NCBI GenBank assembly: GCA_029262895.1
Contig: JAJCYM010000004.1
Span: 1 to 35,354 of the forward strand
Length of the DNA: 35,354 bases
Direction: 5' to 3'
DNA from: Roseivirga sp.
GTDB lineage: Bacteria > Bacteroidota > Bacteroidia > Cytophagales > Cyclobacteriaceae
The notes beneath the pieces were generated by a model. It ran no database searches. It was not told the DNA's origin and saw only the letters and a list, made by a program, of their open reading frames with translations. Positions 26,284 through 35,354 of the stretch are shown piece after piece. Numbering within the stretch: the stretch's first letter is position 1; each line of letters begins with the position of its first letter. The position numbers and the translations under genes were made by a program.

Positions 26284-29163
26284 TCAGCCTCCAACCCGAC
26301 CCGCTTTCTTCGATTTTCTATTATAAGCCATCAAAACTAACAGCAGTACCAAACCAGCAAACCAATAGATACTGGAAGAAGTATTCGAAGAAATCTGACC
26401 ACCATCACCGGTTAACACAAAGCCAGCCCAATAGTAAGGATGGGCATGTAAGGGGTCTTCTATCTCCTCAATGTACTTAATCTTCGCTTCTCTAAGAGAT
26501 TCTCCTTTACGCATACTGTTGGTGAGGTTCTTATAGAGCGTTACCATAATTTTCTGGGTATTAAAATCAGGCACTTTCCAAAGGCTCATGATTACACTAG
26601 CACTTCCCGCATAGGTAAATGCCCTCGCCATACTGATATTCCCCTCTCCTTTTTGAAATAGACCAAATCCGGTGTTACATGCGCTTAACACTACTAAGTC
26701 GGAATGCAGATTTAGATTGTATATTTCAGGAATACTCAAATAGTCGTCCTCATTGGATTCTTCCGATTTTGCAAATACAAGCTCAGAATTTAATGGGTTT
26801 TTATCATCCAGTAATCCATGCATGGCCAGGTGAATAATACGGTATTCATGGGCATTTGCCTTGAAATTGGCCTCTGTAGCCTTCTCTCCAACCCACAAGT
26901 CCCCGTTCAGTAGCTCATTGATTTGAACAACCTCTTCTTCGGCACCGGGAAGTGATAATTTAGCATCTCTGATCAGCACGGACATCATCTTATGAGACAC
27001 AGAGTCCAGCGATGCGCGGTTACTATTGTAGATTGGTGCGAATCCTCCGAATTCAATTTTAATGTTTTTAGTGGTAGGCTTAGCCTCTGCCAACAACGTA
27101 GCTGAATAAGCATAGCTTATCGTATATCGCTTGACCAAATAAGGCAGGTTACGATAGTCAAGCACATCAACGTCCTCAGCTTGATTGGTAAGAAACGCTT
27201 CGAAGTTAATTTGACCTAATACGCCATCCGGTACAATAATCAGTTTTGAAATCTCGGAACCCACTTTTTGGAGCCCTTCAGCCAAAAGCAAATTGTAAAG
27301 CTCCAGGCCCGATGCCAGGTAATCGGCTTTTGCCTCTTTTGGTTGAGACAATACATAACGGTTGTCCGTGGTAGATTTTCTGAAAACGCTGAGTGTTTGC
27401 TGAAACCCTTTGGGCTTTAATATCTTATCCAAAAACAAATCGGTTTCCGTTATTATAAAACGATAAAAATGATTCCTCCCTTCAAAGAATTCAACTAAAA
27501 CTGATCCATCAGCAAGTAAATCTTGCCGAATTTCTTCCAGTGAAGACACCTTCTGATCAAATTTTAATTGGTAGTATTTTGGATAGTCTGTTTCTAAAAG
27601 TTCCAATAAGCGATCATATGCAACATTTTTATCGAACAGAAGATCGGAAAGTTGAATAATCTCAACACTATCTCTGGATGAAAGCGCTTTATTATATCGA
27701 TCATCAAGTGATCGCAACTCCTTTTTGATGTTAATTTCTTCAAGCACCAGGTCATCAGGAACATTGGCAAACTGCCTTGCCTGAGATTTGAAAACCACTT
27801 GTCGCAGTGTATATACTTTGCTTCTTTCCGAATATTCCAGGGCCTCCGCTAAGAACTTGTCGTCCTTCTTGAAAGTGTGTAATTCCAATGCTGCACTAAT
27901 CATACCCTCGTATACCCCAATCGCCTGGGCAGTAATTTGCTCTTGCGGAGATTCAGAATCGAAATTTGAACGAATTCTGTCTGCGGCCATCGCTGCCGCT
28001 TTGAAAGTTATATAGGCATTATTCAACGTCTCAAAATTCTTCGACTTGGCATACAAATTTTCCAGCGCCTTACCCTTACTTCTTAGCAGGTCGAAAAATT
28101 GAAGCTTCGCCATTGCCGTTTCATAAATTGGGTTGGAAGAGATGTCCGTTCCGTCAAATTCCGTAGACACTGCAACTAAACCTTTTTGAAACTGTTCCAA
28201 GGCTTTCTGAAATTGACCCTGGAGATAAAAGAACTTACCCAGATTACTATGAGAAAAGGCGACCTTAACATCTCGTTTACCCAGCGCAGCAATTCTTACC
28301 TTAAGGGCAAGTTCAAGCAACTCTCCTTGCTTGGCTTTATTTCCCCATTTGCCATAGCAGTTACCCATGCTATTGTAGGTATTGGCTATTGAGGAGTGAT
28401 CCGCATCATTGGACTGTTTTATTTGTAGACTTTTTTCATAATAACTAATGGCCTTTTCATAATTTCTATTCCTTTCATAGCCAGCGGCCAAATTGTGATA
28501 GTTTGACGCTATTTTGATATGATCGTTTCCAAAATGCTCCAAATTCATCTTTAGAGATTTGTCCGCAAACTCAAAGAACTGTTCCATCTGCCTTTGGCCG
28601 AAAAAATAAGTCGACAAATTGTGGTAAGATTCTGCTATAGTTGGGTGCGACTGCCCATAGTACGCATGTCGGATGGCTAATGATTTCTCTAAAAAAAGCC
28701 TTTGTTTTTCACTGTCGCCCCTGTTTTTAAAACTTACGGCCAGGTTGTTATAGATGGTCGCCACCTGCGGATGTTCAGAACCCAAAACTTTGGTAAACAG
28801 GTCTGCAGCCTGTTCCAAATAGTCAGACTCCTGATCATAGTTTCCGCTCAAACCAAATACATGGCCAACTTTACTAAGTGCATGAGCCAAGGCGGTGTCT
28901 TCCCCCACTAAAATTTTCCTTTTTATCTGGTAGGCCCAATCATAATACTTAATGGCACTATCGATTTCATGTTGTCTTTCAAAATTGGCAGCCTTCTTGT
29001 CCAATTCTTTACTCAGGGCCAGAGAATCATTTTGAGTTTGAGACAGAACCTGCTTTTGATATATCAGTGAACTATCAGCCAACAAGGCACTTGGCATAAT
29101 AGCCAGAAGCATTATGCCTAACCAAAACCAATGCAACGCTGTTCTCTTATCAAACCGAATCAT
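26284..29163 (-). CDS. TPR-CHAT protease-like protein, membrane-anchored
   Basis: The 959-residue product has an N-terminal signal/anchor (about 9-29, ALHWFWLGIMLLAIMPSALL). At least seven TPR units follow from about 60 to 330, with spacings such as YYDWAYQIKRKIL, IYNNLAVSFKNRG, SYHNLSTYFFGQ and YYEKSLQIKQ. A helical linker leads to a CHAT domain at about 610-920. The CHAT dyad is visible: His782 in HLAMHGLLDD and Cys829 in VVLSACNTGFG, followed by GEGNISMARAFTYAGSASVIMSLWKV. A final membrane helix lies at about 932-946. CHAT is a caspase/separase-like cysteine protease fold; the TPRs usually bind a trigger or partner. The start overlaps the stop of the anti-sigma-like gene by 4 bases (ATGA), and an ECF sigma gene heads the operon. 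The target is unknown, but the anti-sigma is the obvious candidate. Confidence 0.93.
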   Translation of the reverse strand: MIRFDKRTALHWFWLGIMLLAIMPSALLADSSLIYQKQVLSQTQNDSLALSKELDKKAANFERQHEIDSAIKYYDWAYQIKRKILVGEDTALAHALSKVGHVFGLSGNYDQESDYLEQAADLFTKVLGSEHPQVATIYNNLAVSFKNRGDSEKQRLFLEKSLAIRHAYYGQSHPTIAESYHNLSTYFFGQRQMEQFFEFADKSLKMNLEHFGNDHIKIASNYHNLAAGYERNRNYEKAISYYEKSLQIKQSNDADHSSIANTYNSMGNCYGKWGNKAKQGELLELALKVRIAALGKRDVKVAFSHSNLGKFFYLQGQFQKALEQFQKGLVAVSTEFDGTDISSNPIYETAMAKLQFFDLLRSKGKALENLYAKSKNFETLNNAYITFKAAAMAADRIRSNFDSESPQEQITAQAIGVYEGMISAALELHTFKKDDKFLAEALEYSERSKVYTLRQVVFKSQARQFANVPDDLVLEEINIKKELRSLDDRYNKALSSRDSVEIIQLSDLLFDKNVAYDRLLELLETDYPKYYQLKFDQKVSSLEEIRQDLLADGSVLVEFFEGRNHFYRFIITETDLFLDKILKPKGFQQTLSVFRKSTTDNRYVLSQPKEAKADYLASGLELYNLLLAEGLQKVGSEISKLIIVPDGVLGQINFEAFLTNQAEDVDVLDYRNLPYLVKRYTISYAYSATLLAEAKPTTKNIKIEFGGFAPIYNSNRASLDSVSHKMMSVLIRDAKLSLPGAEEEVVQINELLNGDLWVGEKATEANFKANAHEYRIIHLAMHGLLDDKNPLNSELVFAKSEESNEDDYLSIPEIYNLNLHSDLVVLSACNTGFGLFQKGEGNISMARAFTYAGSASVIMSLWKVPDFNTQKIMVTLYKNLTNSMRKGESLREAKIKYIEEIEDPLHAHPYYWAGFVLTGDGGQISSNTSSSIYWFAGLVLLLVLMAYNRKSKKAGRVGG

Positions 29164-29951
29164 AAGTTCATCGATGAGAAGATTCTTTCAGCTTCTTTTG
29201 ACTTAAATCCACCCTTTTCTTTAATCTCCTGGACCAATTTCTGAGCTTCAGCTTGCCTGTTTTGTTTAATATAAATCAAAGCGAGATACCATTTGGCACG
29301 GTCACTAAACGCATGTGAAGTTTCCGTAACACGCTTTAAATAATCAATCGATTGCTCAAAATCAGGTGTGCTTTTATAAGCATAGCATAAGCCTAAATAA
29401 AACCAGGAAGTTGGATCGTTTTCGTCAGCTTCATCAATTAGCCTAAGCGGATTAATGGCTGAGGCAAAATTTCGTGCCCCATAAGCCAGGGTTACCTGAG
29501 ACCACAATTGAGCCAGTTCTTCACCTTCCGAACGGGAAGTGCCAGGAACCGCATAGTGTTTGCTGAGTTCGACATCTACCAGTGTCAAAAGGTCATTTGG
29601 TCTATCTCGATTCAAGATAAGCAAAGTTGCAAAGGCAGCGACCAAAAGGAAGGTGGCAGCAATTCTGATATAGAAACCGGTTTTAGGCGGCTTCTTTTTT
29701 ACCTGATTTCTTTTTTCCGCAAAGCCAATCGAAAGAGATTGGATGTAATCATCCATTTTCTCACGGTTAAAGTCTATCGATTTGTAATAGATCTTTAGGC
29801 CTTCAACTATTGAGGTCAGTTCTTCAGAACCAGCCATCTCCTGGTCAATTTTCTCTTTTGCTTCATCTGTCAAAATACCATCCAAATAATCGAGTAGTAA
29901 TTCGACCGATGGCATCTGGCCCTGTTGGTTACCAAAGCTCATAGCAAGCAT
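29160..29951 (-). CDS. membrane anti-sigma-like protein with TPR-like C-terminus
   Basis: The 263-residue product has a cytoplasmic N-terminal part (about 14-75) that looks like zinc-less anti-sigma domains of Bacteroidota (VELLLDYLDGILTDEAKEKI...SEELTSIVEGLKIY). One membrane helix follows at about 94-112 (YIRIAATFLLVAAFATLLIL), then an extracytoplasmic TPR-like half (WFYLGLCYAYKSTPDFEQSIDYLKRV, AKWYLALIYIKQNRQAEAQKLV). It sits directly between the ECF sigma gene (36-bp gap) and the CHAT gene (4-bp overlap). The anti-sigma role is inferred from order and domain layout. M4 is an alternative start. Confidence 0.82.
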   Translation of the reverse strand: MLAMSFGNQQGQMPSVELLLDYLDGILTDEAKEKIDQEMAGSEELTSIVEGLKIYYKSIDFNREKMDDYIQSLSIGFAEKRNQVKKKPPKTGFYIRIAATFLLVAAFATLLILNRDRPNDLLTLVDVELSKHYAVPGTSRSEGEELAQLWSQVTLAYGARNFASAINPLRLIDEADENDPTSWFYLGLCYAYKSTPDFEQSIDYLKRVTETSHAFSDRAKWYLALIYIKQNRQAEAQKLVQEIKEKGGFKSKEAERIFSSMNL

Positions 29952-29987
29952 TTAATTTACAAATCAACTCAAAGACGATTCTCATCT

Positions 29988-30536
29988 CTAATATTCCCTA
30001 GATTTTAAATATTTTTTAAACCTGGCTTTTAATAAACTCCTGATTTTTGACTTATTGTTGGCCACTGTCTTCTTGTTCATACCCAACCTGATAGCAATCT
30101 CGTTATTGTCATAGCCCTCTGAATGTAGTTTCCAAATTTGTTCTTCCTCCTCATCCAGTATATTGGCAATAAACGCTTCTATACTACTCTCCTCGAACTT
30201 TTGGGAGATCAAAGGTTCTTCATGAACAACTTCTTTCTCCTTTAACACCTTCAGTGCAGTTTGATGTCGCTTGACTTTCCTTAAATGTGAAATGCAAAGA
30301 TTTCGTGCAACGGTAAACAGCCAACTTTCTATGTCCTTGACTTTTCCGGGGTCCTCCAGATGGTACGTTTTGATTAATGCTTCAGAAGCGCAATTTTCAG
30401 CTTGATGTACTTCTTTTAAAATTCCCAGACAATAGAACGTGAGGATAGGACGGCTAATCTCATAGATACTACCAAAAGCCTCTTGATCACCTTGTATAAA
30501 CTTTTGCCAGAAGTGCTCTAATTCTGCTATTCTCAT
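29988..30536 (-). CDS. ECF-type RNA polymerase sigma factor
   Basis: The 182-residue product contains sigma region 2 at about 8-90 (FGSIYEISRPILTFYC...ENCASEALIKTYHL...WLFTVARNLCISHLRKVKR) and region 4 at about 125-175 (EEEQIWKLHSEGYDNNEIAIRLGMNKKTVANNKSKIRSLLKA), with the helix-turn-helix intact. Regions 1 and 3 are absent, as expected for ECF factors. It is first in an operon with the anti-sigma-like and TPR-CHAT genes. Two ECF-looking promoters lie just upstream on the other strand and in the next gap. A candidate housekeeping element for this operon is at 30657-30664. Confidence 0.93.
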   Translation of the reverse strand: MRIAELEHFWQKFIQGDQEAFGSIYEISRPILTFYCLGILKEVHQAENCASEALIKTYHLEDPGKVKDIESWLFTVARNLCISHLRKVKRHQTALKVLKEKEVVHEEPLISQKFEESSIEAFIANILDEEEEQIWKLHSEGYDNNEIAIRLGMNKKTVANNKSKIRSLLKARFKKYLKSREY

Positions 30537-30624
30537 CTTGCCGAGGGAGTAAGATAATGTTTAATCTAAAAATACTACTCTCGAAATCTCGAAAACCCAC
30601 TTTTTAAAAAAATTCCGTGGCTTC

Positions 30625-30650
30625 TGGGAATATTAGCGTTCAAAAACGTC
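30625..30650 (+). promoter_or_regulatory. ECF-type promoter of the small lipoprotein gene
   Basis: TGGGAA (30625-30630), a 16-bp spacer, and CGTC (30647-30650) match the general ECF layout (GGAA-like -35, CGTC-like -10). The downstream block ATGTATCAAAC is also almost the same as the one before the adhesin gene. Predicted start of transcription is about 7-9 bases past CGTC, roughly 18 bases before the ATG at 30676. Confidence 0.7.
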
Positions 30651-30656
30651 ATGTAT

Positions 30657-30664
30657 CAAACATA
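30657..30664 (-). promoter_or_regulatory. candidate housekeeping -7 element for the sigma operon
   Basis: On the minus strand TATGTTTG fits TAnnTTTG, with TTC where TTG is expected 19 bp upstream. It would give a leader of about 110 bases to the sigma gene. It lies immediately beside and against the -10 of the opposing ECF promoter. Confidence 0.4.
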
Positions 30665-30675
30665 AACACCCAGTC

Positions 30676-31146
30676 ATGACTGCGAATCGAATCTTATCAA
30701 TCTCACATTGTCAATCTCATTTGAAACACCTGATGTTAGGCATACTACTAATCACATGCTTTGGTTGTGGTGGCGGTGGTGACGATGGGCCAACTGAAAC
30801 TCAACAGGAACAGGCATTTGCCTTATTGGCGGGCAACTGGACTCTGAATTCTATTGCCCTTGATGGTCAAAACGTAAATTCAGACTATTCGGGTTTTTCA
30901 CTTTCCTTCACTAATGGTGGGTTCACCACGACCAATGCCGGAGCGCTCTTCAATAGCATTGGTACCTGGCAATGGGCAGATGCAACGGCCGCCAATATAA
31001 TCACGCTGGATGATGGCAAAGAAGTGACTATAGTAGAGCTGACGACCAGCAGTTTTACTTTTACATTCACCGTTAACAGCACTGGAGGTGTCGCCAACGG
31101 TATCAACGGATTAGCTGGGAACTATCGTATCTCAGTTAACAAATAG
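30676..31146 (+). CDS. small lipocalin-like lipoprotein, probable ECF regulon member
   Basis: The 156-residue product has a long N-terminus with a hydrophobic stretch (HLMLGILLITCFGC) and the acylated Cys at residue 31, then a glycine linker (GGGGDDG). Residues about 45-156 look like a lipocalin-like beta-barrel of the kind common in Bacteroidota lipoproteins: LLAGNWTLNSIALDGQNV, FTNGGFTTTN, GTWQWADATAANIITLDDG and FTFTFTVNSTGGV...GNYRISVNK. The start at 30676 fits the ECF promoter at 30625-30650 (short leader). Met20 is an alternative. It is divergent from the sigma operon. Its function is unknown; it could be a signal sensor or the ligand for the anti-sigma/CHAT system. Confidence 0.85.
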   Translation: MTANRILSISHCQSHLKHLMLGILLITCFGCGGGGDDGPTETQQEQAFALLAGNWTLNSIALDGQNVNSDYSGFSLSFTNGGFTTTNAGALFNSIGTWQWADATAANIITLDDGKEVTIVELTTSSFTFTFTVNSTGGVANGINGLAGNYRISVNK

Positions 31147-31183
31147 GGTACAAACTAATCATTTGAAAAAAACTCAAAAACCG

Positions 31184-31210
31184 TGGGAAAAGTAAGTAGG
31201 CAAAAGCGTC
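31184..31210 (+). promoter_or_regulatory. ECF-type promoter of the giant adhesin gene
   Basis: TGGGAA (31184-31189), a 17-bp spacer, and CGTC (31207-31210) are followed by ATGTTTCAAAC. This mirrors the promoter before the lipoprotein gene. The adhesin ATG at 31236 lies about 25 bases past the -10, so the leader is short. The stop of the preceding lipoprotein is only 37 bases upstream, so the promoter lies in the gap between the two genes. Confidence 0.7.
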
Positions 31211-31235
31211 ATGTTTCAAACCCAACGATTCAGAC

Positions 31236-34200
31236 ATGGCCAGAATTCTACTTTTATCCCTCGTTTTATTTTTAGGTATAGGTTTTCAATCACATGCTCA
31301 ATTCACCTGGAAGGCTGGTGTAATTGGCAGTTGGAATGATGCAGACAATTGGGTAGAAGGCGACATCCCCACTGCCGGTTCAGAAATAGTCATACCATCC
31401 GGAACTGTCAGAATTAACACAACCCCAAATCCATCAATTGGTGGCCTAACCATGACGGGAGGAACGTTAGAATTATTTAGTGGGCTCTCTTTGACTATCA
31501 ACGGAAGCTCCAATATTGCTTCAGGTGCCACCTTGGAAGTTAGAGGTACACTCACACTAAATGATAACCTGATTGTAGATGGTCAACTGATATTAGAAGA
31601 TGGCGGAATTTTTGGCCCAGGTGATCTTAGTATAAAAGGAGATTTTAATTGGAATGGAGCAGGGATTGAAGTATCTGGACAATTTGTAAATACTGGAACC
31701 ATTGACATAACGTCTGCTCAGTTGAGAACTACGCTAGACAACCAGGGCACCGTCAATCAAACAGGTGATTTGATCCTTGGGACGGGTGGTAAATACATTA
31801 ATAATAACATGCATGATTTCCAGAACAATGCAGATATTAATGAAAATGTATCTGGAACATTAGCCAATGCATTTACCAATAATGGAACTTTAATTAAAAG
31901 TGGAGGTGACAGTCCCGGACGTTCGGATATTCTGGTAGTATATGATGGAACGGGATCGGTTGAAGCACAAATAGGAAGCATTGAGTTTCGGGAAACCAGC
32001 ACGCAATCTGGCACTTTGATAAGCTCAGGAGGTTCCATCCGATTCCCTACTTTCACTCATAGCTTTTCAGGTGTGTCAATACAAGGCACAGGTTTCACGG
32101 AAGTGAATGGTGCAACTGTGACTATTGATTCAGACGTGACTGCTACCAATTTTAAATTCGATGGAGGAAATATTAGCGGAACGGCAAACCTCACTGTAAC
32201 GAACTCAATGAATTGGATGTCAGGTGCGTTTGGAAATTCTACAGATACTGGTCAACTCACTCTTTCGGGTACCTTCACTATCGATGGGCCCAGTGGAAAA
32301 ACGTTAGGGACCACACTTACAAATAATGGCACCGCCACCTGGACTGATGGAGACTGGATATTACAGTCTGGAGCCTCGCTCATCAATGAGGGTATATTCG
32401 ATATACAGACTAGCCATGATATGGGTCTTGAAGGAATGATCCAAAACAATGGCACAATGACTAAAAGTGGTGGTATAACTGCCACTACCTTGAGGTCAGA
32501 ATTCAACAATACTGGAACCGTGTCCATAGAAACCAGTACCCTTGAGTTCCGCAACGGTAGTACTACCGGTACCATAACAATCAGTGCTGGAGCTACATTG
32601 GGTATTGATGGAAGCAATAGCGTTTTTACCAATGAAGCATCAGGTACTATTGGTGGCTCCGGGGCTATAGAAATAGAAGGTAGTCTAGTCAACAACGGGA
32701 CTTTTGCTCCAGGTGCTTCTCCTGGAATCCTCACAGTCAATGGAAACCTAACCATGAACCCGACATCCATGATTGAAATGGAAATTGGAGGAACAACGGT
32801 TGGCACGGACTATGATCAAATCAATTTCACAGGAAACGTGGCGATTGACGGGAAAATGGATATTTCCTTTATCAATGGATTTAAGCCTGAACACAACGAC
32901 TCGTTCACACTCTTTACCTCTCCGGAAAATACAGGGGAATTAAGTGAGGTCAGTGTTGCATCACAGGATGGATTAGCCTTCAATGTCAACAATGCAAGCA
33001 GTATAGTCTCTATAGGTGCTTTAAGCCTCAATGACTACCATGTAGAATCGATCACTTTCCAAGAGTCAGTACTGGAAAATCCAGTGAGTCTTCAACTGGC
33101 TACAAATGATTCACCAGAAAACGTTCTCATTGGATTCGACTTCAATTTCTTTGGACAGGTTCAGACAGAAGTTTCAATCTCGCAAAATGGAGCACTTATG
33201 TTTGGATCAACTGATTTGACTGAGGCACAGTTGATTCCCAATGACGATCCACCAAATGGATTCATTGCTGGCTTTCTATCAAACTTCAAACAACACCCTT
33301 TTGGGAAAATCAATTACTCGCTTAATGGAACTGCACCCAATCGACAATTCATTGTTGATTATGATAAGCTATCTTCTGAGAAAAATACGGGAGAAATTTC
33401 ACTCCAGATCAAACTATTCGAGGGATCCAACAACATCGAGATTCACTGCGAAGATTGCCAGTCTGGTACAAATAATGCCCTTCAAGGCATTGAAAATAGT
33501 TTAGGAGATAAGGCCTTTTTTCTATCCGGGAGGAATAGAGAAAACTTTAGCCTGACAAATGATGGTGTGCTATTTGCACCCTTTGCTGCTACTCCTACCT
33601 CTCAGACGGAGGTTGTTTTGAACTTCCCTCCTTTGGTAATTCCAGGGAAAATAAGAAGAGCCTCCAGTGATGGAGTTTTTGCGGAAATAGCAAATGGTAT
33701 TGCGCTTAGCACCACCACCTTTACTGATACAGGGCTCAATCCCTTTACCGAATATACTTATGAACTGACAGGAGCATTTGGTCCCGGAGAAGCTTCTTCG
33801 ACCATTTTCTATCTCAAAACCAAAACATTGCCTGATTCCTTTATTGATTTTGTGGAAGTCTCAACTTCCAGTACAAGTGTCAACCTGAATTGGACAAACA
33901 ATACTCTAGGGTCTGACAATACCAGACTCGAGAGAGCTACCTCTCCTGACGGCCCGTTCAAATCAATTGTAGAAGAAGAAGCAGAGAGACCCTTCGGTGA
34001 CGGAAATCTTGATCCGAGCACGACTTATCACTATAGAGTCGGAGCGTCTACTGCATTTGGTCATGCGACATTCTCCGATGTACTCATGGTAAACACCGAC
34101 CCTCCAGGCAGGATTTTTGTTAATCAGAATGCCACCGGTGCAAATGATGGTTCATCATGGGCAGATGCCTTTACAACACTTATCAAAGCCCTGAGTGTGG

Positions 34201-35354
34201 CTTCATTGAAAGATGAAATCTGGATTGCTGCCGGCACTTATAAACCGGGAGAACTTGGAGATGATCCAAGTGCAAGCTCTACTTTCCGAGTGCTAGATGG
34301 TGTGAAACTGTATGGGGGCTTTGCCGGCACTGAATCTATATTGGAAGAGCGAGACATTGTTTCAAACCCAACAATTCTCAGTGGAGATATTAAAGTGGAA
34401 GGTGACCCTTCAGATAATGTTAGAACAGTGATCGATATTGGCGGAGATAAGTTGGACTATCGAATTGATGGGCTAATTATAAGAGATGGCTTTGGAGGAA
34501 GTGAAGGCGGTGGTCTTGTTCTCCAAGAATCTAATCTGGTTATTTCTAATTGTGTAATTACGGAGAATCAGTCCACGAGTAACGGGGGTGGTATTTTCAT
34601 GTCAGGAGGAGGTACACTCCAAATATCTGACTCAGAAATTTCTAATAACACAGCAACCGAAGCCGGAGGTGGTATTTATTTTGAGCAAGAAGGAGGAGCA
34701 TTTACCACTGAGCTTAATAATGTAATAATCACAGGAAATACAGTGGCCAAATCAGATGGTGGTGGCATTTATTATGTAGCTGAGTTTGGCACCTTGAAAA
34801 TTATTGACTCAAAAATATCCAACAATCAAATCAATGGAGATTTTAACCGTGGAGGAGGTGGTATTTACATTGGAAGTGGCAAATTATCGTTGATAAACTC
34901 AGAAGTCAATGGCAATTCAACCGAATCAAGTGGTGGTGGTGTTTTCGCTGAAAGCCTCATAGAAATGAGAATTGAGAATACACAAATCGATAATAACGAG
35001 GCTGGTAAAAATCAAACCACTGGCCGTGGTGGAGCCATTTACTTGGATAATCCTGCATTCCGAGAGTCTCCATTTATCGTGCTTAATAGCACCATTAGTA
35101 ACAATACTGCACCTAATAATGGCGGAGGACTATTTTCATCACTTCAAGAACATGACATCATTAATTCCACTTTTTCAGGAAACTCTTCAACCAATGCAGA
35201 TGGAGGAGGGCTTCACTTTGATTTTGAAGCAGTAAGTATAAACCCAACTATTCGATTAAACCACGTGACCATTACCAACAATTCAGCTAATGGTGGAAAT
35301 GGTGGTGGAATATCAAATAATAGCGCTGTCATTAGCATCACTAATGTGTTGCTC
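31236..35354 (+). CDS. giant secreted beta-helix adhesin (choice-of-anchor Q type), partial
   Basis: The frame from ATG 31236 stays open for 1373 codons to the window edge. It begins with a signal peptide (MARILLLSLVLFLGIGFQSHAQ). Residues about 23-600 are repetitive Asn/Gly/Thr-rich strands with many NNGT/NTGTI turns (filamentous beta-solenoid-like). Residues about 600-790 hold a beta-sandwich segment. Two FN3-like domains follow at about 795-955 (PTSQTEVVLNFPPL..., TSSTSVNLNWTNN). From about 962 the sequence RIFVNQNATGANDGSSWADA marks the start of a right-handed parallel beta-helix, with repeats like GGGIYYV, GGGIFMSG and GGGLHFD and the NNT spacer. Such proteins are surface adhesins or polysaccharide-binding proteins. 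The C-terminal anchor or type IX signal is off window. It has an ECF-type promoter. Confidence 0.92.
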   Translation, partial: MARILLLSLVLFLGIGFQSHAQFTWKAGVIGSWNDADNWVEGDIPTAGSEIVIPSGTVRINTTPNPSIGGLTMTGGTLELFSGLSLTINGSSNIASGATLEVRGTLTLNDNLIVDGQLILEDGGIFGPGDLSIKGDFNWNGAGIEVSGQFVNTGTIDITSAQLRTTLDNQGTVNQTGDLILGTGGKYINNNMHDFQNNADINENVSGTLANAFTNNGTLIKSGGDSPGRSDILVVYDGTGSVEAQIGSIEFRETSTQSGTLISSGGSIRFPTFTHSFSGVSIQGTGFTEVNGATVTIDSDVTATNFKFDGGNISGTANLTVTNSMNWMSGAFGNSTDTGQLTLSGTFTIDGPSGKTLGTTLTNNGTATWTDGDWILQSGASLINEGIFDIQTSHDMGLEGMIQNNGTMTKSGGITATTLRSEFNNTGTVSIETSTLEFRNGSTTGTITISAGATLGIDGSNSVFTNEASGTIGGSGAIEIEGSLVNNGTFAPGASPGILTVNGNLTMNPTSMIEMEIGGTTVGTDYDQINFTGNVAIDGKMDISFINGFKPEHNDSFTLFTSPENTGELSEVSVASQDGLAFNVNNASSIVSIGALSLNDYHVESITFQESVLENPVSLQLATNDSPENVLIGFDFNFFGQVQTEVSISQNGALMFGSTDLTEAQLIPNDDPPNGFIAGFLSNFKQHPFGKINYSLNGTAPNRQFIVDYDKLSSEKNTGEISLQIKLFEGSNNIEIHCEDCQSGTNNALQGIENSLGDKAFFLSGRNRENFSLTNDGVLFAPFAATPTSQTEVVLNFPPLVIPGKIRRASSDGVFAEIANGIALSTTTFTDTGLNPFTEYTYELTGAFGPGEASSTIFYLKTKTLPDSFIDFVEVSTSSTSVNLNWTNNTLGSDNTRLERATSPDGPFKSIVEEEAERPFGDGNLDPSTTYHYRVGASTAFGHATFSDVLMVNTDPPGRIFVNQNATGANDGSSWADAFTTLIKALSVASLKDEIWIAAGTYKPGELGDDPSASSTFRVLDGVKLYGGFAGTESILEERDIVSNPTILSGDIKVEGDPSDNVRTVIDIGGDKLDYRIDGLIIRDGFGGSEGGGLVLQESNLVISNCVITENQSTSNGGGIFMSGGGTLQISDSEISNNTATEAGGGIYFEQEGGAFTTELNNVIITGNTVAKSDGGGIYYVAEFGTLKIIDSKISNNQINGDFNRGGGGIYIGSGKLSLINSEVNGNSTESSGGGVFAESLIEMRIENTQIDNNEAGKNQTTGRGGAIYLDNPAFRESPFIVLNSTISNNTAPNNGGGLFSSLQEHDIINSTFSGNSSTNADGGGLHFDFEAVSINPTIRLNHVTITNNSANGGNGGGISNNSAVISITNVLL

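Follow-up and report, generated by a model that had tools for sequence, protein, structure and literature searches.

A predicted membrane-gated ECF sigma factor switch with its own promoter type and local targets in Roseivirga

The window, by which we mean the whole stretch of DNA that was analysed, is an entire contig of 35,354 bases from a Roseivirga genome of 5.8 Mb in 102 contigs. On its minus strand lies a gene (29988..30536) whose product is an ECF (group 4) sigma factor, as it scores above the ECF cut-off (TIGR02937, 47.9 bits against 42.9), contains the sigma-2 region (Sigma70_r2, 40.1 bits against a cut-off of 24, E-value 3.2e-10) and is 182 aa long; assignment to TIGR02985, the Bacteroidetes sigma family 1, was ruled out, at 60.3 bits against a curated cut-off of 126.4. 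The same strand carries a gene for a membrane protein with an N-terminal domain, a single transmembrane (TM) segment and a C-terminal TPR domain (29160..29951), which family alignments, hydropathy and the presence of zf-HC2 in family members lead us to read as a putative anti-sigma factor, and a gene for a TPR-CHAT caspase-like protein (26284..29163; CHAT E-value 3.7e-58) with a hydrophobic N-terminus and a C-terminal TM segment. On the plus strand are found a gene for a lipoprotein-like protein (30676..31146; homologue searches, with the lipobox judged by eye), whose family is multi-copy in the genus, and, 89 bp further on, one for a giant secreted surface protein or adhesin (31236..35354; Beta_helix E-value 9.1e-10), truncated by the contig end. 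The sigma gene is thus adjacent to these two genes and divergent from them, as a preliminary description of the locus, which proposed that the sigma factor directly drives both, had observed.

GGAA and CGTC boxes are the textbook form of ECF promoters, and such promoters are known with 16-nt and with 17-nt spacers. The two near-identical sites on which the earlier proposal relied were recovered exactly: ECF-type promoter 1, TGGGAA-N16-CGTC (30625..30653, plus strand; boxes at 30625-30630 and 30647-30650), precedes the lipoprotein gene, and ECF-type promoter 2, TGGGAA-N17-CGTC (31184..31213, plus strand; boxes at 31184-31189 and 31207-31210), precedes the adhesin gene. Both match the longer CGTCATG form without mismatch, and 100 shuffles of the window gave zero matches to the promoter pattern. 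Judged by sequence, the sites have a GGAA-type -35 box, a CGTC-type -10 box, a fixed spacer of 16-17 nt and a position upstream of gene starts, as expected of ECF promoters. The short leaders and the common downstream block that had been described are also present: each leader measures 29 nt from CGTC to ATG, and the two stretches running from CGTC through ATG agree in 24 of their 32 bases. The hexamer CCGTGG recurs as well, the copy at 31181-31186 overlapping the second TGGGAA as reported, whereas the copy at 30615-30620 stands four bases, not five, from the first. The block CGTCATGTWTCAAAC occurs exactly only at the two window sites in a genome scan with up to two mismatches; as a general part of the promoter it was rejected, 10 genome sites at up to two mismatches being set against 22 control sites.

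A third site, GGGAATATTAG-N10-CGTC (spacer 16; 29974..29998, minus strand, read from 29998 to 29974), had been missed. Found in a genome scan for the core motif, it lies 26 nt ahead of the anti-sigma ATG, has GGGAATATTAG in common with the lipoprotein site, and has equivalents at two related loci (L149 and L154). It overlaps the 3' end of the sigma gene, and since its -35 box sits in the last sigma codons, part of it is possibly under coding constraint. No site was seen ahead of the window sigma gene itself. The idea of a mini-regulon therefore holds, but with three promoter-like sites rather than two, and, given the one before the anti-sigma and CHAT genes, the regulon probably includes those genes as well.

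The adhesin promoter is the least certain of the three, because its N17 spacer, the only one in our scan of related loci, is present in no relative. One may also consider that only the lipoprotein site is a true promoter, and that the adhesin site is a decayed duplicate, the adhesin being transcribed by read-through. The spacer without parallel, the 24 of 32 identical bases and the mere 89 bp between two genes of the same strand would all fit such a history; however, both boxes of the adhesin site are intact, the leader lengths are identical, and ECF promoters with either spacer are known. We consider this scenario unlikely, though it retains an appreciable chance of being correct.

The genome-wide scan for TGGGAA-N15-18-CGTCATG that had been put forward as a check gave three matches, versus none for a reversed-pattern control, and the third match (on contig C50) falls inside a 1253-codon open frame. 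We also inspected all 32 genome sites of the bare core GGGAA-N16-17-CGTC. Only at the three window sites is the core both clear of long frames and followed, 26-29 nt further on, by an ORF start; L066 and L069 are also clear of long frames, with no ORF start within 250 nt. For the variant GGGAA-N16-AGTCW the genome has 17 sites, none of them outside long frames just before an ORF start. Enrichment of the bare core was discarded as a line of evidence, the core being rarer than its reversed control (32 versus 79 genome sites).

We then compared the promoters beside orthologous operons, as had likewise been suggested. A sigma profile built from four proteins and searched in a sample of 390 genomes of the family yielded 17 matches with E-values of 1e-90 to 1e-34, the remainder being at 1e-21 or weaker, and all 17 clade loci were counted, the four training sigmas included; earlier searches of genome contigs had found no relatives with a single protein and 16 loci with an alignment. 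Among named records, five of the eight closest sigma relatives carry the label Cyclobacteriaceae, two Bacteroidetes and one Cytophagales. Two further loci, L081 and L083, neither of which was used to define the motif, were added after the first counts, and over the resulting 19 clade loci GGGAA-N16-[CA]GTC recurs at 16, beside the sigma or the anti-sigma gene. The three others are L152 and L153, which have no clade-type site, and L045, which has a near match only.

Within 150 bp of the sigma start, 13 of the 17 loci (13 of 19 with L081 and L083) have GGGAA-N16-[CA]GTC on the divergent strand, so that 12 further clade sigma genes have a site of equal orientation and spacing to promoter 1 of the window; a looser search, tolerant of any single mismatch and of spacers from 15 to 18 nt, again gave 13 of 17, every one with a spacer-16 match. 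With the same 150-bp regions shuffled, the corresponding count averaged 0.008 for the motif, never exceeding 1 over 2000 shuffles, and 0.31 for the looser form, never exceeding 3 over 300 shuffles. In the strict CGTC form a divergent site is found at 5 of 17 loci, and the C-to-A widening of the -10 box that raises this to 13 was derived from the same 17 loci that are counted. Across the 13 divergent sites the spacer is always N16 though its letters vary, and in the boxes only the first base of the -10 element changes, from C to A. Sites directed towards the sigma gene occur at 6 of 17 loci, or 8 of 19 with L081 and L083, both of which have GGGAA-N16-AGTC in this orientation and no divergent-strand site, the nearest long upstream gene there being on the sigma strand. 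Sites directed towards the anti-sigma gene occur at three loci (the window, L149 and L154), and L154 has no divergent-strand site. As a separate observation, L154 (genome G450) has an extra clade-type site 14 nt before a 662-aa gene, which shares the strand of the sigma gene and lies upstream of it.

Altogether the 17 loci have 22 N16 sites, with C or T before GGGAA in 20, A three bases before the -10 box in 19, and T or A directly after the -10 box in all 22. Since neither the CATGTWTCAAAC block nor CCGTGG is present at the sites printed for the relatives, the two boxes and the 16-nt spacer are the only features that hold beyond the window, and as far as can be judged from these sites the general motif is GGGAA-N16-[CA]GTC. 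The paired boxes could in principle be an operator for a different DNA-binding protein rather than a sigma promoter. Nevertheless, the boxes are asymmetric with a fixed 16-nt spacer, 17 of the 22 sites stand 7-47 nt before an ORF start, and the pairing with a sigma clade fits an ECF promoter; we regard the operator as extremely improbable. For some divergent sites the nearest ORF is more distant: L145 and L149-L151 lack an ORF of 60 aa within 200 nt, and at L148 the ORF is 179 nt away.

If the sites are indeed ECF promoters, one may still ask which sigma factor reads them. The genome has many ECF sigmas, with 23 matches to the window sigma at E-values up to 0.001, itself included, and overlapping ECF regulons are suggested for Flavobacterium psychrophilum in the available part of PMC9723704, so the sites might be read mainly by other ECF sigmas, the adjacent one not being the main driver. 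Against this, the motif tracks the clade of the window sigma (16 of 19 loci), while none of 38 distinct loci of other ECF sigmas carries it in either direction. These 38 are what remained of 54 loci after 12 without a called sigma ORF and 4 duplicates among the other 42 were dropped; the clade list in this comparison had 18 rows, two of them duplicates. Fisher's test of clade against other ECF loci gives 1.6e-9 for 13 of 17 and 1.1e-8 for 13 of 19, values that are only a guide because the loci are related and not independent trials. Moreover, a narrower form of the motif shows no excess (63 matches versus 93 for the reversed control) across 15 genomes that belong to the same genus or family and showed no clade sigma. 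Reading mainly by other sigmas thus appears quite improbable to us, and the promoters very probably belong to the adjacent sigma factor, which supports the original suggestion that it drives the lipoprotein and adhesin promoters.

The reach of this sigma factor appears to be short. In 15 clade genomes the narrower form, which does not match the window adhesin or anti-sigma sites, gave 77 matches versus 66 for the reversed control; of the 77, 18 are no more than 1 kb from a clade sigma gene (rows on sigma contigs were picked by eye, distances computed by script). Because matches away from the clade sigma loci are at background level, the excess is local, and on these counts the sigma factor appears to switch on mainly neighbouring genes. 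At the eight sigma loci that are more distant (L135-L142), our models detected neither an anti-sigma nor a CHAT homologue at E-values up to 1e-3; one of these loci, L140, has a single N16 match about 2 kb from its sigma gene.

The anti-sigma homologue occurs at 16 of 17 clade loci and the CHAT protein at 15, often convergent or a few kb off; L153 has neither, and the contig of L148 stops about 0.5 kb past its anti-sigma gene. The window anti-sigma homologue aligns with 15 homologues from other clade loci and has one TM segment by hydropathy, at residues 95-113, ahead of its TPR domain. The motif zf-HC2, a zinc-binding motif that occurs in anti-sigma factors, was found at E-values up to 0.1 in 4 of 16 family members, the window protein itself having neither zf-HC2 nor any other Pfam anti-sigma match. 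A search of the PDB with the anti-sigma profile returned TPR proteins, with no anti-sigma factor named among the 60 matches listed of 70. The TPR-CHAT protein has TPR repeats, a CHAT domain and a His/Cys dyad, as a predicted protease of this kind should; the His is conserved in all 14 domains where it can be read, and the Cys in all 13. By hydropathy, a C-terminal TM segment is seen in at least 11 of the 15 CHAT proteins, at least two of the other four (L046 and L151) being truncated by a contig end, and the N-termini of the window protein and several others resemble signal peptides by eye. The CHAT protein is therefore apparently exported and membrane-anchored, and from its signal-peptide-like N-terminus and TM segment it would share a side of the membrane with the anti-sigma TPR domain. 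The whole genome (G000) has eight matches to the CHAT domain, each in an open frame of 862-1151 aa.

Taken together, we read the locus as a self-contained, membrane-gated ECF sigma switch with clade-type sites and local targets, to which we assign a probability of about 0.8. The anti-sigma factor would hold the sigma factor at the inner membrane until a signal arrives; once freed, the sigma factor would recognise its sites and transcribe the lipoprotein and adhesin genes, with starts about 20 nt before their ATGs, as well as the anti-sigma and CHAT genes from the promoter at the end of the sigma gene. The latter would result in negative feedback and reset the switch. With less certainty, the membrane-anchored CHAT protein could be a protease or sensor that inactivates the anti-sigma factor from outside the inner membrane. 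Such a switch would provide a predicted sigma factor together with its promoter and a short local target list for a bacterial group in which, to our knowledge, few ECF regulons have been defined, and it outlines a possible path by which a signal at the envelope could lead to giant surface proteins being expressed.

In its general design the switch resembles RseA-RpoE and RsiW-SigW (a comparison that draws on general knowledge and on a mention in the available part of PMC10028731), in that a one-TM anti-sigma homologue is encoded beside the sigma gene, zf-HC2 occurs in its family and some sites are directed at the sigma gene. It differs from those systems in having a TPR domain beyond the TM segment and a CHAT protein nearby. 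The latter brings to mind the type III-E CRISPR system CASP, in which the TPR-CHAT protease Csx29 cuts Csx30, the inhibitor of an ECF sigma factor, and in which the promoters of the locus itself have three matches to the CASP-sigma motif, according to the parts of PMC10028731 consulted. As in CASP (same parts of PMC10028731), the window encodes a TPR-CHAT protein, a putative sigma inhibitor and an ECF sigma factor together, but here the putative inhibitor has one TM segment, export and membrane anchoring are predicted for the CHAT protein, and the neighbours of the motif include surface proteins. A phmmer search of PDB chains with the window CHAT protein gave 33 matches at E-values up to 0.001, all falling in the TPR part; because no Csx29 was named among them, the likeness is one of logic, not of membership. 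In the literature on a link between CHAT and ECF proteins, as far as the portions consulted go, only the CRISPR protease work (PMC10028731, PMC9729208) joins TPR-CHAT to a sigma factor.

At three clade loci (L149-L151) the site, about 56 nt off the sigma start on the divergent strand, is followed by a terminator-like hairpin and then a T run, with 68-83 nt between the assumed start and the beginning of the T run. Before the hairpin and T run, L150 and L151 have no ATG and L149 has only a seven-codon ATG frame, while some TTG and GTG frames read through; an Rfam scan of the L150 stretch returned tRNA only. This short stretch is a candidate sigma-dependent small RNA. A more ambitious reading of the system would join these elements: a caspase-like TPR-CHAT protease outside the inner membrane would cut the TPR-bearing anti-sigma factor and free the ECF sigma factor for surface adhesins and for its own reset, a membrane form, outside CRISPR, of the Csx29/Csx30/CASP-sigma logic, with the same promoter driving a small RNA in some relatives. 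Cleavage of the anti-sigma factor by the CHAT protein is our conjecture, and we offer the whole of this reading tentatively, as possible rather than probable. Were it correct, the control of ECF sigma factors by TPR-CHAT proteins may extend beyond CRISPR, and the CASP trio would then fall within a wider signalling theme.

With respect to the targets, nine of 13 divergent-strand proteins from eight other loci have T9SS sorting domains or belong to PorP/SprF, and four have no T9SS features, including the first divergent genes of L044, L045 and L046. The adhesin of the window is a possible T9SS cargo protein; the part inside the contig shows no sorting domain, and the C-terminus lies outside. As a parallel, the SM6 promoters upstream of T9SS genes in F. 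psychrophilum show an ECF-type motif whose -10 box is CGT (PMC9723704, available part). ECF control of T9SS genes is also described, in the sources seen in part, for SigP of P. gingivalis, which acts with PorXY; unlike there, the sites here lie beside the sigma gene itself, with an anti-sigma homologue adjoining.

Across the 19 genomes of the genus that were searched, the lipoprotein family has between 1 and 14 matches in each, and in the genome of the window paralogues are found on contigs C75 and C78. Nine paralogue loci were fetched, in eight of which the lipoprotein ORF was called; no site stands before a lipoprotein ORF at these loci, and the one motif match, inside a long frame at L194, has a spacer of N15. 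The fetched stretches leave out the starts of most of the neighbouring giant genes. At eight of the nine loci the lipoprotein match comes directly after a long frame on the same strand that is surface-protein-like by eye, and at L187 a second giant gene follows the lipoprotein paralogue, as in the window.
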